Assembly: GCA_017857755.1 (NCBI GenBank)
Contig: JAFMCM010000003.1
Location: forward strand, 1 to 64,000
Origin: Methylophilaceae bacterium
GTDB taxonomy: Bacteria > Pseudomonadota > Gammaproteobacteria > Burkholderiales > Methylophilaceae
Direction of reading: 5' to 3'
DNA: 64,000 bases
The position numbers and the translations under genes were made by a program. Below, in pieces: positions 38,799-54,913 of this stretch. The notes beneath the pieces are model-generated. The model searched no databases and was not told where the DNA came from. It saw only the letters and a program-made list of their open reading frames with translations. The first letter of the stretch is position 1. Every line of letters begins with the position of its first letter.

Positions 38799-40199
38799 TT
38801 AAAAAGGCAATTGGACATGTGGCGCTGCCGCTAGAATGACATCCCTGAAACGCGCTTGAATGCGGTTTAATGCAGCTTCATTGTCTGCTTCAAAGCGCAG
38901 GACAATAACTGGGGTCGTGTTTGATGGACGCATTAAACCAAAACCGTCACTATATTCAACACGTAAACCATCAATTTTGATGACTTTTGCATCATCGAAC
39001 TTTGCTACTTTTTGTAGTTTTGCAATTAATGCATGCGGTTCACCTTCTTGCATTTCAATATGTTGTTCAGGCGTGTTGACGCTGTCGGGTAGTGCGTTAA
39101 GGACTGCTGAAGCGTCACTCGACTGACTCAAGATTTCCAACAAGCGTGCACCTGCATATAAACCATCATCAAAACCGTACCAACGTTCTTTGAAAAAAAT
39201 ATGACCACTCATTTCACCAGCAAGGGCGGCAGCTGTTTCCTTCATTTTTGCTTTGACTAAAGAATGGCCTGTTTTCCACATCAATGGTTTACCCCCCCGC
39301 GCCTGAATCCATGGTGCTAAATGGCGAGTTGATTTCACATCGTAAATAATCGTCGCCCCAGGTTCGCGCTTCAGGACATCCTCTGCAAATAGCAACAGCT
39401 GCCTGTCTGGATAAATAATATGCCCCTCTTTTGTTACCACACCTAAACGGTCACCATCGCCATCAAAAGCCAGTCCAATCTCTGATTCGCCTGTTTTAAG
39501 GGCATGGATTAAATCTTTTAAATTACTTGGTACGGAGGGATCTGGGTGGTGATTAGGAAAATGGCCATCTACTTCGCAAAAAAGCTCTTCAACTTCACAT
39601 CCCAATGCTTCATAGAGCTTTTTAGCAAATACACCAGCGACGCCATTACCTGCGTCTACAGCAATTTTCATCGGGCGGCTCAGTTTAATATGATGGCTAA
39701 TCTGGGCAATATATTCATTATCAATATAATAAGTGCTTTCTTGCCCAGTCCCAGTGGCTAACACGTTTGTTTCAATGCGTTGACGTAAGGCTTGTATCGA
39801 CTCGCCTGACAGCGTTTCGCCTGCCAGCACCATTTTCAGACCGTTATAATTAGGTGGATTGTGACTGCCTGTTACCATCACACCACAGTCGGTGTTAAGG
39901 TGATAGGCGGCGAAGTACACAACAGGTGTTGCCACTAGACCTAAGTTAATGACGTCAACACCCGCTTTGCGAATGCCAATCGCTAGTGCGGCGGCAAGTG
40001 ATGGGCCAGATAAGCGACCATCGTAGCCAACACAAATTGTCGATTGTTGACGCGCCAACGCTTCACTACCTAAAGCTTGACCGATAGACTCTACAATTGC
40101 AGGTGTTAGCGTTTCTCCTACGATACCACGGATATCGTAGGCTTTAAAGATGGCTTTCGGTAGAGACGGCTCTTGTCTGGTTATATTGTTTGGTGTCAT
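38799..40199 (-). CDS. algC: Phosphomannomutase/phosphoglucomutase (AlgC/ManB type)
   Basis: This 466-residue alpha-D-phosphohexomutase has FKAYDIRGIVGETL at the N-terminus, the phosphoserine loop VMVTGSHNPPNYNGLKM, the magnesium loop LAFDGDGDRLGVV, the sugar loop GEMSGHIFFKERWYGFDDGLYA and the C-terminal RPSNTTPVIVLRFEA. It supplies mannose 1-phosphate or glucose 1-phosphate for surface polysaccharide. Its ATG shares one base with the stop of iscX (TAATG), so the two are translationally coupled. It is convergent to pgm across the pseudogene. Confidence 0.94.
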   Translation of the reverse strand: MTPNNITRQEPSLPKAIFKAYDIRGIVGETLTPAIVESIGQALGSEALARQQSTICVGYDGRLSGPSLAAALAIGIRKAGVDVINLGLVATPVVYFAAYHLNTDCGVMVTGSHNPPNYNGLKMVLAGETLSGESIQALRQRIETNVLATGTGQESTYYIDNEYIAQISHHIKLSRPMKIAVDAGNGVAGVFAKKLYEALGCEVEELFCEVDGHFPNHHPDPSVPSNLKDLIHALKTGESEIGLAFDGDGDRLGVVTKEGHIIYPDRQLLLFAEDVLKREPGATIIYDVKSTRHLAPWIQARGGKPLMWKTGHSLVKAKMKETAAALAGEMSGHIFFKERWYGFDDGLYAGARLLEILSQSSDASAVLNALPDSVNTPEQHIEMQEGEPHALIAKLQKVAKFDDAKVIKIDGLRVEYSDGFGLMRPSNTTPVIVLRFEADNEAALNRIQARFRDVILAAAPHVQLPF

Positions 40200-40393
40200 T
40201 AACTAGCTTCATCCATCCATGCTAGCTGAATGGCTTCCAGTATTTTTTCACCGCAATGGTCTTCTGTATCATCAAATCCATCCAGATTCATTACCCATTG
40301 CATTAAGTCAGTAAAGCGGATGGTCTTAGGATCTGTTTCTGGATATTGGTCGTAAAGATCTTCTGCAATTCTTTGTGTGTCTGTCCATTTCAT
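40199..40393 (-). CDS. iscX: Fe-S cluster assembly protein IscX
   Basis: IscX is a small acidic protein that binds IscS and iron and modulates Fe-S cluster assembly. The 64-residue protein reads MKWTDTQRIAEDLYDQYPET, then DPKTIRFTDLMQWVMNLDGFDD and EKILEAIQLAWMDEAS, which match the family along its whole length. It is unusual that it is separated from other isc genes and coupled to a phosphohexomutase gene. Upstream lies the terminator of a predicted small RNA on the same strand. Confidence 0.93.
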   Translation of the reverse strand: MKWTDTQRIAEDLYDQYPETDPKTIRFTDLMQWVMNLDGFDDTEDHCGEKILEAIQLAWMDEAS

Positions 40394-40457
40394 TGTGATA
40401 AGCTCAAATGACGATTAAAAAATCATTATAGCTTGCTATTAATTTGTTGTGAAAGTC

Positions 40458-40488
40458 AAAAAAAAATCCCAACCACGAGGGTTGGGAT
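40458..40488 (-). terminator. Strong rho-independent terminator facing iscX
   Basis: On the minus strand ATCCCAACC (40488-40480) pairs with GGTTGGGAT (40474-40466) around CTCGT, followed by a run of nine T. On the plus strand no T run follows, so the direction is clear. No protein gene lies upstream on this strand. Confidence 0.9.
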
Positions 40489-40525
40489 AAGGGAGGAGTC
40501 GAAACTTGGGAGAATTACGCTCTAT
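40458..40525 (-). ncRNA. Predicted sigma-54/NtrC-controlled small RNA with anti-Shine-Dalgarno motifs
   Basis: From a sigma-54 promoter at 40535-40550 a transcript of about 68 bases would start near 40525 and end at the T run 40466-40458. The 5' part of about 37 bases is predicted unpaired and has two C-rich stretches, TTCTCCC (40513-40507) and CTCCTCCC (40499-40492), complementary to GGGAG and GGGAGGAG ribosome-binding sequences. The 3' part is a 9-pair hairpin with nine T, a typical Hfq-binding terminator. No open reading frame fits. The flanking genes are iscX (same strand, downstream) and glyA (divergent). The transcript is inferred from signals, not observed. Confidence 0.7.
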
Positions 40526-40534
40526 CTTGATAAA

Positions 40535-40550
40535 AGCAAACAATATGCCA
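40535..40550 (-). promoter_or_regulatory. Sigma-54 (RpoN) promoter of the predicted small RNA
   Basis: The minus strand reads TGGCATATTGTTTGCT. This matches the -24/-12 consensus TGGCAC-N5-TTGCW with correct spacing (GG at 40549-40548, GC at 40537-40536). Only the sixth base departs from the usual C, and T is often found there. Transcription would begin about 12 bases downstream, near 40525. Confidence 0.75.
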
Positions 40551-40632
40551 ATTTATATTATGTTAAAAATCAATATGTTATAAAAGTTTCAATGTTAAGT
40601 ATGTGTGATTCATTTGCAATCTACCTGATTGG

Positions 40633-40649
40633 TGCACGCTTTAGGTGCA
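40633..40649. promoter_or_regulatory. NtrC-type enhancer box
   Basis: TGCACGCTTTAGGTGCA is a TGCAC-N7-GTGCA inverted repeat with the exact spacing of NtrC sites (consensus TGCACC-N5-GGTGCA). It lies about 115 bases upstream of the predicted start at 40525, a usual enhancer distance for sigma-54 promoters. It also lies upstream of glyA, so an effect in that direction cannot be excluded. Confidence 0.65.
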
Positions 40650-40773: not shown

Positions 40774-42021
40774 ATGTTTAGCCATTCAAATAAACTTCAC
40801 ATTACTGACCCTGCTATCGCAAAACTGATTGATGCAGAGGTGCAACGCCAGGAGCAACATATTGAGTTAATTGCTTCAGAAAATTACACCAGCCCAGCGA
40901 TAATGGAAACGCAAGGTTCGCAATTAACGAATAAATATGCAGAAGGTTATCCAGGCAAGCGTTTTTATGGTGGTTGTGAGGTTGTTGATCAAGTTGAGCA
41001 ATTAGCGATTGACCGTTTAAAAGCCTTGTATGGAGCTGAATATGCAAATGTGCAACCACATTCTGGTTCGCAAGCTAATCAAGCCGTTTACTTTGCGATG
41101 TTAAAGCCTGGCGATACGATTATGGGGATGAATTTAGGACATGGCGGACATTTAACCCATGGTTCACCCGCAAATATATCAGGTAAGTTGTTCAATATTG
41201 TCGCTTATGGTCTTAATGAGCATGAAGAGATTGATTACGATGAGATGGAGCGTATTGCCATTGAGTCTAAGCCTAACTTGTTAATCGGTGGTGCTTCCGC
41301 TTATGCCTTGCGTTTTGATTGGGCACGTATGGCAGAGATTGCTAAAAAGGTCGGCGCGTATTTTATGGTCGATATGGCGCATTATTCTGGATTGATTGCT
41401 GGTGGTGTTTATCCTAATCCAGTGCCACACGCGGATTTTGTTACATCGACGACCCATAAAACATTGCGTGGCCCACGTGGCGGTATCATTATGGCAAAAG
41501 CTGAATTTGAGAAAAAATTAAACTCAAGTGTATTCCCGAGCTTGCAAGGCGGCCCTTTAATGCATGTTATGGCAGGTAAAGCCACAGCTTTCTTAGAGGC
41601 AGCAACGCCTGAATTTAAATCCTATCAGAAGCAAGTGGTTAAAAATGCAGCAGTGATGGCAGATGTGCTAGCATCGCGCGGGTTACGCATTATTTCCGGA
41701 CGAACCGAGTCACATGTGTTTTTGGTTGATTTGCGTGCTAAAGGGTTAACAGGTAAGGCGGCAGACGCAGCCTTAGGGTTGGCACATATCACAGTGAATA
41801 AAAATTCAATTCCGAATGATCCAGAGAGCCCGTTTGTGACGTCTGGTATTCGGATTGGATCGCCAGCAATTACAACTCGCGGCTTTAAAGAAGACGAAGC
41901 AAAACAAGTGGCACATTTGATTGCAGATGTGTTGGATAACCCTGAAGATGAAGCTACGATTGCGGCAACCAAAGTAAAAGTACATGCGCTAACTTCACGT
42001 TTCCCAGTTTATAGTGCTTAA
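40774..42021 (+). CDS. glyA: Serine hydroxymethyltransferase
   Basis: GlyA converts serine and tetrahydrofolate to glycine and methylene-tetrahydrofolate with PLP. The 415-residue protein has [39 protein letters not shown], the PLP-lysine segment [15 protein letters not shown], and [14 protein letters not shown]. Length fits the family. In methylotrophs this enzyme may also serve C1 assimilation; here the ribulose monophosphate cycle would be expected, so a housekeeping role is more likely. nrdR follows. Confidence 0.97.
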
Positions 42022-53371: not shown

Positions 53372-53384
53372 GTGCCTGCTCTTG

Positions 53385-53939
53385 TTAAGGTAAACCAACT
53401 GGGATATTACTCATAATCATGCCAGGCGCATCGGAGTCGCTCACACCAGGTGTAGGTACCTCTGGCAGCAATGACATTACGCGATCTAAGTTGCGACGTG
53501 TTCCCCAATTACTGTTATCCAGTTTAACCGCGTTTTTGTAAGCTGTTTTTGCTTCTAAAAGCAAGTATTCGGCTTCATCACGTGTCCTGGGGTCATTACT
53601 ACTATCCACTCGCAAGGCTTTCAAAAAAAACATATTGCCAATATTATGAAACACAGCAGAACGATTGCTGGCAGAGCTCGTTTGGGTCAACCCAGTAAAC
53701 AATTTGGTTGCTTCTTTGTAATATTCTTTTTTGGCTAACCAATAAGCTTGTGCATACTTTGCTTCATAACTTAATTGATCAGTTTTTGGTGGCTTACCGA
53801 TTTTAACCGCTGTATTAAACGCGTTAATCTGATTCAAGCGATTAACTTGATGCGCAATACCAAGGCTAGAAATCAATGCAATCAAACTGCAACCCCAGGT
53901 GAGTTTTTTGACGGTTAAAAATCCTAAGTTGAGCGCCAT
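53385..53939 (-). CDS. mxaK: Methanol dehydrogenase accessory protein MxaK (TPR-like)
   Basis: This 184-residue protein has a signal-anchor (residues 11-29, LTWGCSLIALISSLGIAHQV) and helical repeats of TPR type (AYWLAKKEYYKEATKLFTGL; EYLLLEAKTAYKNAVKLDNSNWGTRRNLDRVMSLLP). A proline-rich C-terminus follows. It lies between two VWA genes and overlaps mxaC by 16 bases, the MxaK position in known mxa clusters. It probably works in the periplasm or at the membrane with MxaC and MxaL. The precise function of MxaK is not established. Confidence 0.82.
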   Translation of the reverse strand: MALNLGFLTVKKLTWGCSLIALISSLGIAHQVNRLNQINAFNTAVKIGKPPKTDQLSYEAKYAQAYWLAKKEYYKEATKLFTGLTQTSSASNRSAVFHNIGNMFFLKALRVDSSNDPRTRDEAEYLLLEAKTAYKNAVKLDNSNWGTRRNLDRVMSLLPEVPTPGVSDSDAPGMIMSNIPVGLP

Positions 53940-54913
53940 GTTTTATTCTCCAAATATTTCACGCCAAGCAATAATGCAATCATCATTGCGGCTAAGAAAT
54001 AACATAATTGCGTAAAGTTCTTACCTGGTATTTTTTCTAGGTAGGTAATGGGTTTCTTTTCTTTTTTATTAATATCGAAAATAGCGGCTTCTAATGATTT
54101 TGGGTCTTCCGCTTCGTAAGCTTGAAAAGGCGTATCCAACGTTTTAAAGAAATTATGTAATTCAATTTGCACTGGTGGCAATTCGATTTCTTTCCAATTT
54201 TCGTATTTTGGGTCGAAAATACTGATTCCACCAGGTTGCCTCAATACAATCCAGTAAAGCGTAATATTATGTTGCTGTAGCCACGCTTTGAGTTTTTGCT
54301 GGACAACACCCTCAACTCTACCAGCACCGTCAGAAATCAAGATAATGGCGCGCGAGCCAGAATCAGGTACTTGATCAAATTGTGCAACAGCACTAGTTAA
54401 GCCAGCGCCAATATTGGTTTGAAATAATGCATTGCCTGCAGTTGCTTTAATCGCGGCCAAGATAGCCTCTCTGCTTTCGGTTAATGGTAAGACATACATG
54501 GCGGAGTTACTAAAGGTAGTAATGCCAATCATGTCGTTTTTACGTGCATTGACAAAGGCCGTCATCAGGCGACTGGCTGCAGCTGACTTAGTTTCACCCA
54601 CATTACCAGAAGCCACGCCTCCTGCAAATGCGTCATCCATACTCGCACTACGGTCTAATACCAATGCGATTTGTGCACCTACGCCTATTTTCTCAATTTT
54701 CTGCTCTAAGGTGTGTGGGTCAGCTAGGCCAACGATGATGCAGGCGATACTAATGCTGGCTAATAATTTCAGCATCAAACCAATTAAATTGGATAATGGG
54801 TCATGCGGCAACATCTCTACCCATGAATAGCTTCTAGTGTGCGAGCGTTCAAGTAAAATCGGCAATAAAGCAAGCGGCAATAGCCACAACATTAATGGAT
54901 GCGTAAAAGCCAT
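53924..54913 (-). CDS. mxaC: Methanol dehydrogenase accessory protein MxaC (VWA domain)
   Basis: This 329-residue BatA-like protein has two N-terminal helices (LWLLPLALLPILL and LMLKLLASISIACIIVGLA), a VWA domain with LVLDRSASMDD (D87-x-S-x-S), DMIGITTFSNSAMYVLPLT and AIILISDGAGRVEG, and a C-terminal helix. Its ATG shares one base with the mxaA stop (TAATG). MxaC, MxaK and MxaL are required for calcium incorporation into methanol dehydrogenase in known methylotrophs. Confidence 0.85.
   Translation of the reverse strand: MAFTHPLMLWLLPLALLPILLERSHTRSYSWVEMLPHDPLSNLIGLMLKLLASISIACIIVGLADPHTLEQKIEKIGVGAQIALVLDRSASMDDAFAGGVASGNVGETKSAAASRLMTAFVNARKNDMIGITTFSNSAMYVLPLTESREAILAAIKATAGNALFQTNIGAGLTSAVAQFDQVPDSGSRAIILISDGAGRVEGVVQQKLKAWLQQHNITLYWIVLRQPGGISIFDPKYENWKEIELPPVQIELHNFFKTLDTPFQAYEAEDPKSLEAAIFDINKKEKKPITYLEKIPGKNFTQLCYFLAAMMIALLLGVKYLENKTWRST

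Follow-up and report, generated by a model that had tools for sequence, protein, structure and literature searches.

A conserved, predicted sigma-54-dependent small RNA beside glyA in Methylophilaceae and its possible link between nitrogen limitation and methanol oxidation

Between iscX and glyA, members of the Methylophilaceae carry a conserved non-coding element comprising a sigma-54 promoter, NtrC-type boxes, a hairpin and a terminator, and the comparison of loci supports its independence from iscX. To judge from these motifs, the locus is very probably an RNA gene under sigma-54 control. We lean, with some reserve, towards the view that it encodes a trans-acting RNA of ~67 nt (hereafter sRNA1) that is driven by NtrC and sigma-54 and restrains methanol oxidation under nitrogen limitation; there are no RNA, binding or mutant data. 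When nitrogen is limiting, phosphorylated NtrC would bind the upstream boxes and activate sigma-54 RNA polymerase, and the resulting base-pairing RNA would expose UCUCC(AAA) in a 5′ hairpin loop and end in a terminator. The loop would pair with ribosome sites of the UUUGGAGA type. Its chief partner would be xoxF, the gene of the lanthanide methanol dehydrogenase, joined in some genera by hps and by pqqA, pqqC and pqqE, which serve the PQQ cofactor of XoxF. Pairing would block translation, so that C1 intake is slowed when nitrogen is short. That the RNA is transcribed, that it answers to nitrogen, that these are its targets, that it represses them and that an RNA chaperone takes part are all inferences. 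A short NtrC/sigma-54 RNA with anti-Shine-Dalgarno motifs had been proposed here in an initial annotation, and the proposal gains support, from comparative sequence evidence only.

The window (the whole 64 kb stretch of DNA analysed, from genome G000) shows, in minus-strand order, NtrC-type boxes (40649-40620), the sigma-54 promoter, a predicted start at ~40525, a 5′ hairpin, a C-rich linker, the terminator, a sigma-70-type promoter and iscX. The features are as follows.

40633..40649, minus strand: NtrC-type box 1, TGCACCTAAAGCGTGCA, 11/14 to TGCACCA-N3-TGGTGCA.
40620..40636, minus strand: NtrC-like box 2, TGCACCAATCAGGTAGA, overlapping box 1, 11/14.
40535..40550, minus strand: sigma-54 promoter (-24/-12), TGGCATATTGTTTGCT, 16/16 to TGGCAYRNNNNTTGCW.
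40458..40525, minus strand: predicted small RNA sRNA1, about 66-68 nt, start inferred 12 nt past the -12 C.
40496..40522, minus strand: 5′ hairpin with the CUCC seed in its loop, from folding.
40509..40513, minus strand: UCUCC seed (UUCUCCCAAG in the window, UCUCCAAA in most relatives), invariant in the 31-sequence alignment A2.
40491..40498, minus strand: second C-rich stretch, CUCCUCCC, between hairpin and terminator, read from the sequence; present in relatives but more variable.
40458..40488, minus strand: intrinsic terminator with a 9-bp stem (40488-40466), a 5-nt loop and a T tract, from folding and a terminator scan.
40425..40453, minus strand: separate sigma-70-type promoter of iscX, TTCACA-17-TATAAT, 11/12; a TATAAT-like box before iscX is kept in relatives.
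40199..40393, minus strand: iscX (ORF), the downstream neighbour, outside the RNA.
40774..42021, plus strand: glyA (ORF), divergent, the constant neighbour of sRNA1 (kept in L168, L169 and L171).

The NtrC box, sigma-54 promoter and terminator are all present where the initial annotation had placed them. With GG at -24, GC at -12 and N10 spacing, TGGCATATTGTTTGCT meets the definition of a sigma-54 promoter and is the sole perfect TGGCAYRNNNNTTGCW match in 64 kb. Its rarity is weak evidence because sites with at most one mismatch number 3 in the window versus 5.2 expected from shuffling; conservation is the real test, and on the aligned sequences the promoter passes it. A single NtrC-type box is not rare either, since the whole window holds 5 sites scoring 11/14 to TGCACCA-N3-TGGTGCA. 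The region contains no other terminator of this kind (0.4 expected). Having its own promoter, a short non-coding body and a terminator with a U tail, the predicted transcript fits the description of a trans-acting, intrinsically terminated sRNA as far as motifs can tell; the U tail is only compatible with Hfq dependence, and no Hfq-binding data exist. An Rfam search of the whole window returned two tRNAs only and no match at the sRNA1 locus.

How widely is this arrangement kept? A DNA search recovered copies of 83-85% identity in two genomes of the genus of G000. iscX was located in 173 of 187 family genomes and the DNA upstream was read for 90; in genera g1, g7 and g22 and part of g19 the elements follow one another as in the window, from the boxes through a TGGCAY-N6-TGCW-type promoter, a AGCGYATATCTCCAAAATCGCTCCCC-like RNA and a terminator to the iscX promoter box and iscX. 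A covariance model found strong matches (at least 43.9 bits) in 68 of the 187 genomes, all in g1, g7, g19 and g22, and 31 of these matches had built the model. The window copy, matched over 40459-40550 with the promoter included (68.8 bits), was itself among the building sequences. Across the 31 copies of A2, the GG and GC of GG-N10-GC, TGC and UCUCC are invariant; for GG/GC this is partly by selection, as the homologue scan required GG-N10-GC, while UCUCC was not required. Copies in g14 are divergent (UCUCCC) with weak model scores. Homologous loci in the same context across so many genomes put the sRNA1 elements, as sequence features, beyond chance, and the conservation check suggested at the outset comes out in favour of promoter, boxes, CUCC motif and terminator, all kept in four genera. 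Terminator-only matches in G068, G025 and G096 are unrelated terminators rather than sRNA1 copies, and L009 is also unrelated. At one locus (L080, G176:C5), a MITE-like insert of ~180 bp with terminal inverted repeats separates the sigma-54 promoter from the RNA body.

The stretch first described as ~37 unpaired bases instead folds as a 5′ hairpin. In the window RNA this is a small hairpin exposing CUCCC in its loop and followed by CUCCUCCC; individual folds likewise have a short 5′ hairpin with UCUCC in its loop and a stem sequence that differs between lineages. A stem of at least 4 pairs around unpaired UCUCC is predicted for 26 of 31 homologues versus 6.7 expected with shuffled flanks. Against dinucleotide shuffles the sRNA1 fold has z = -3.7, mostly due to the terminator, whose stem varies in sequence in relatives with its pairing kept. 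Both of the C-rich anti-Shine-Dalgarno stretches originally pointed out exist, but only UCUCC is invariant and CUCCUCCC varies more.

The loop is complementary to UUUGGAGA. The expectation of GGGAGG-type target sites is replaced: the invariant seed is UCUCC(AAA), and its complement marks xoxF, pqq and hps ribosome sites. The target list is pattern-based and covers the genes behind a chosen subset of matches only, in sequence stretches, without a full genome screen. Each of the 14 genomes searched has 9-27 matches to the pattern TTTGGAGA-N4-9-ATG. Among the matches listed, which are not a census of this genome-wide scan, it precedes xoxF (g1, g7, g19), a second xoxF (G058), hps (g19), tal (G000), three pqqA copies, pqqC and pqqE in G167, and pqqA, pqqC, gapA and ccoN in G058; rpmB, rpmH and a porin are among the further genes that it precedes. 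In G167, xoxF or pqq genes account for 6 of 27 matches, where we estimate a random expectation of ~0.1 among ~2,700 genes. The site is rare, serving 1 of 46 window ORFs, and sampled 19-kb regions contained one incidental UUUGGAGA ribosome site among their ORFs. The window gene in question (53384-53954, minus strand) encodes an uncharacterised membrane-anchored protein with the start MALNLGFLTVKKLTWGC, and its site is common to G004 and G005.

Among the xoxF starts surveyed, TTTGGAGA is present in almost every sampled g1, g7, g19 and g22 genome, and the site is mostly TATGGAGA or similar in sampled g2, g3, g10, g13, g14, g15 and g17. As exceptions, g8 and one g20 genome have TTTGGAGA at xoxF with no sRNA1 detected; in G196, G191 and G001 the xoxF site differs from the TTTGGAGA of sRNA1 genera. 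TTTGGAGA at xoxF could be a matter of clade history. hps carries the site in 15 of 17 g19 genomes, in single cases only in the other sampled genera and not in the window genome, and pqqA carries it in 4 of 7 copies seen. Four pqqA copies were noted in G167 (L429, L430, L432, L433), three with the UUUGGAGA site and the pqqB/pqqC-adjacent one without. xoxF leaders (L218-L267) share another conserved motif, ACCCTTAGTARTN, which precedes the ribosome site by ~10 nt, also in genera that lack sRNA1. By duplex energy alone xoxF does not stand out (rank 16 of 126 in G000 and 35 of 109 in G167), and this measure was discarded as an uninformative target finder that for the most part picks up G-rich starts of roughly called genes. 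In G000 the seed UUCUCCCAAG pairs with its own xoxF as a 6-bp run, a mismatch and 5 more pairs. There are no expression data; the targets of sRNA1 are plausible only, and whether xoxF and the PQQ genes are real ones is evenly balanced in our judgement.

The RNA and the xoxF site tend to vary together. Uninterrupted RNA-xoxF pairing spans 9.6 nt for own partners versus 9.0 nt for swapped ones in 32 genomes (permutation p<0.0001; within genus p=0.0035), with relatedness not fully removed; looser scoring of a 20-genome subset gave a weaker signal (p=0.02; within genus 0.09). iscX and glyA starts, used as controls, gave no pairing signal. Matched changes comprise UUCUCC in the RNA with GGAGAA at xoxF (g1, and as a separate case the g7 genome G011), CCAAAU with AUUUGG in G189 versus CCAAU with AUUGG in G191, and CCAAUU with AAUUGG in G196. 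Five genomes (G214, G172, G184, G199, G224) do not follow, and the last four keep only 8 pairs.

These data bear on two other accounts of the targets. The RNA may be real and NtrC/sigma-54 driven but act mainly on other mRNAs, for example at GGGAGG-type sites via CUCCUCCC or on many messages as a general anti-Shine-Dalgarno RNA, with xoxF minor or coincidental. The energy ranking that places other genes above xoxF fits such an account, as do the imperfect pairing with the window genome's own xoxF and CUCCUCCC itself, which is at its strongest in g1 and the sibling RNA described below; it sits poorly with UCUCC alone being invariant, with the co-variation with xoxF and with the functional coherence of the UUUGGAGA genes, and we hold it to be unlikely while keeping it in play. 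Alternatively, UUUGGAGA could merely be the ribosome site of some highly expressed genes at which the RNA does not act. It is also carried by rpmB and rpmH, and genera that lack sRNA1 conserve the xoxF leader too. Yet few ribosome sites are of the UUUGGAGA type, at xoxF the sRNA1 genera have moved from TATGGAGA to TTTGGAGA, and the xoxF site changes together with the RNA in G011, G189, G191 and G196, which leaves this second account doubtful.

Boxes scoring at least 10/14 to TGCACCA-N3-TGGTGCA lie upstream of 21 of 30 sRNA1 copies, against 2.0 expected in shuffles, and recur at -99/-100, -78 to -80 and -69/-70 from the -24 T. Box 1 of the window lies 99 bases ahead of the T of the -24 element, and relatives have equivalent boxes at fixed distances. 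The locus thus presents the motif arrangement of an NtrC-activated promoter, with TGCACCA-N3-TGGTGCA-type sites ~100 bp upstream. A search for RpoN was positive in 176 of 187 family genomes; the NtrC gene was not searched for, and there are no binding or mutant data. Many g7 boxes read TCAACCA-N3-TGGTTGA, possibly reflecting a lineage-specific NtrC preference or another activator. Could sRNA1 then depend on sigma-54 and yet answer to a different enhancer-binding protein and a signal other than nitrogen? The g7 variant, the lack of such boxes at the sibling RNA and the unsearched presence of NtrC would allow it, but boxes in g1, g19 and g22 are near the enteric NtrC consensus and at NtrC-typical positions. 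We regard a different activator as improbable and NtrC control of sRNA1 as likely.

In g19 and g14 examples sRNA1 stays by glyA when 1-2 kb with another gene separates it from iscX, and because it is kept there it is taken as a unit independent of iscX. One could instead see a sigma-54 transcript that the terminator cuts short and that serves iscX in cis, as its leader or attenuator; this idea draws on most g1, g7 and g22 loci lying directly upstream of iscX in the same direction, but it is rejected as scarcely credible given this separation, the own promoter box that iscX keeps and the absence of any alternative antiterminator fold among those seen.

Weaker model matches mark a further locus, flanked by orn and a glycogen-synthase-like gene. 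This sibling RNA has a TGGCAY-N6-NTGCTTAT promoter, a hairpin AGCUUCUCCAAAGCU, CUCCUCC and a terminator, and is found in more genera than sRNA1 (g1, g3, g5, g6, g7, g8, g10, g14, g17, g19 and g22, including Methylobacillus flagellatus L1B); it was not found in G000. The loci can be described in one line.

L152-L167, L170 and many of L271-L346: sibling RNA with a sigma-54-type promoter and a UCUCCAAA hairpin loop, without NtrC boxes.

The invariance of UCUCCAAA in the sibling alignment A3 is partly by selection, as the search pattern required it. NtrC-type boxes are not enriched upstream (2 of 55 versus 3.1 expected). An order-wide search of 399 genomes gave strong sibling matches (at least 63 bits) only in Methylophilaceae; scores of ~32 bits or less outside the family are at chance level, and the matches inspected were not beside orn. 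Three loci in other families of the order (L484, L489, L486), also not beside orn, have chance-level model scores yet a similar anatomy, with a candidate sigma-54-type promoter, a hairpin, CCUCCUCC and a terminator. A tentative extension is that a Methylophilaceae-specific pair of sibling anti-Shine-Dalgarno RNAs couples nitrogen to C1 metabolism, sRNA1 (through NtrC) repressing XoxF and the PQQ pathway and co-evolving with the xoxF site, and the orn sibling adding a non-NtrC signal to the same targets.

The nearest precedents of sRNA1 are NrsZ, NfeR1, NmsR and GlnZ. NrsZ of Pseudomonas aeruginosa, an RNA of ~226 nt that is processed and encoded next to ntrC, opens the rhlA 5′ UTR and activates rhlA (PMC8395346). 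It is likewise a nitrogen-limitation sRNA, controlled by NtrB/C and RpoN, a control that sRNA1 matches at sequence level only; sRNA1 differs in its ~67 nt, its place beside glyA/iscX, its CUCC loop and its predicted role as a repressor. Homology to NrsZ is not indicated by Rfam, with no match at the sRNA1 locus, the NrsZ model unchecked and no alignment made. NfeR1 (alpha-r14 family) of Sinorhizobium meliloti has three hairpins with CCUCCUCCC and is activated by LsrB and repressed by NtrC (PMC10746234). Like the predicted sRNA1 it is a nitrogen-stress sRNA that blocks ribosome sites through unpaired anti-Shine-Dalgarno motifs (PMC10746234), but the family is alphaproteobacterial and sRNA1 has, in place of three CCUCCUCCC hairpins, one UCUCC hairpin, a linker and a terminator. 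NmsRA and NmsRB of Neisseria meningitidis, tandem copies under the stringent response (RelA) that target TCA-cycle mRNAs, are betaproteobacterial siblings with UC-rich anti-Shine-Dalgarno sequence in loop and linker that switch central carbon metabolism (PMC5362039); the NmsR family has three stem-loops, whereas sRNA1 has two stem-loops, a distant sibling beside orn and sigma-54-type promoters at both. GlnZ of Enterobacteriaceae also serves C/N balance by lowering a carbon pathway (sucA) under nitrogen limitation (PMC9731577), but is processed from the glnA 3′ UTR and differs in sequence and target. The main text of a Methylophilaceae transcriptome paper does not mention small or non-coding RNA (PMC3728764). 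In the open-access papers searched we found no described sRNA that links nitrogen status to methanol oxidation.

The prediction that sRNA1 acts on xoxF is a specific one that could be tested in cultured strains at little cost, and with its sibling nature provides a comparison of the same seed behind two promoters. In lakes, soils and coastal seas, Methylophilaceae are among the major consumers of methanol; if the prediction is true, sRNA1 may slow their use of methanol when nitrogen is scarce.
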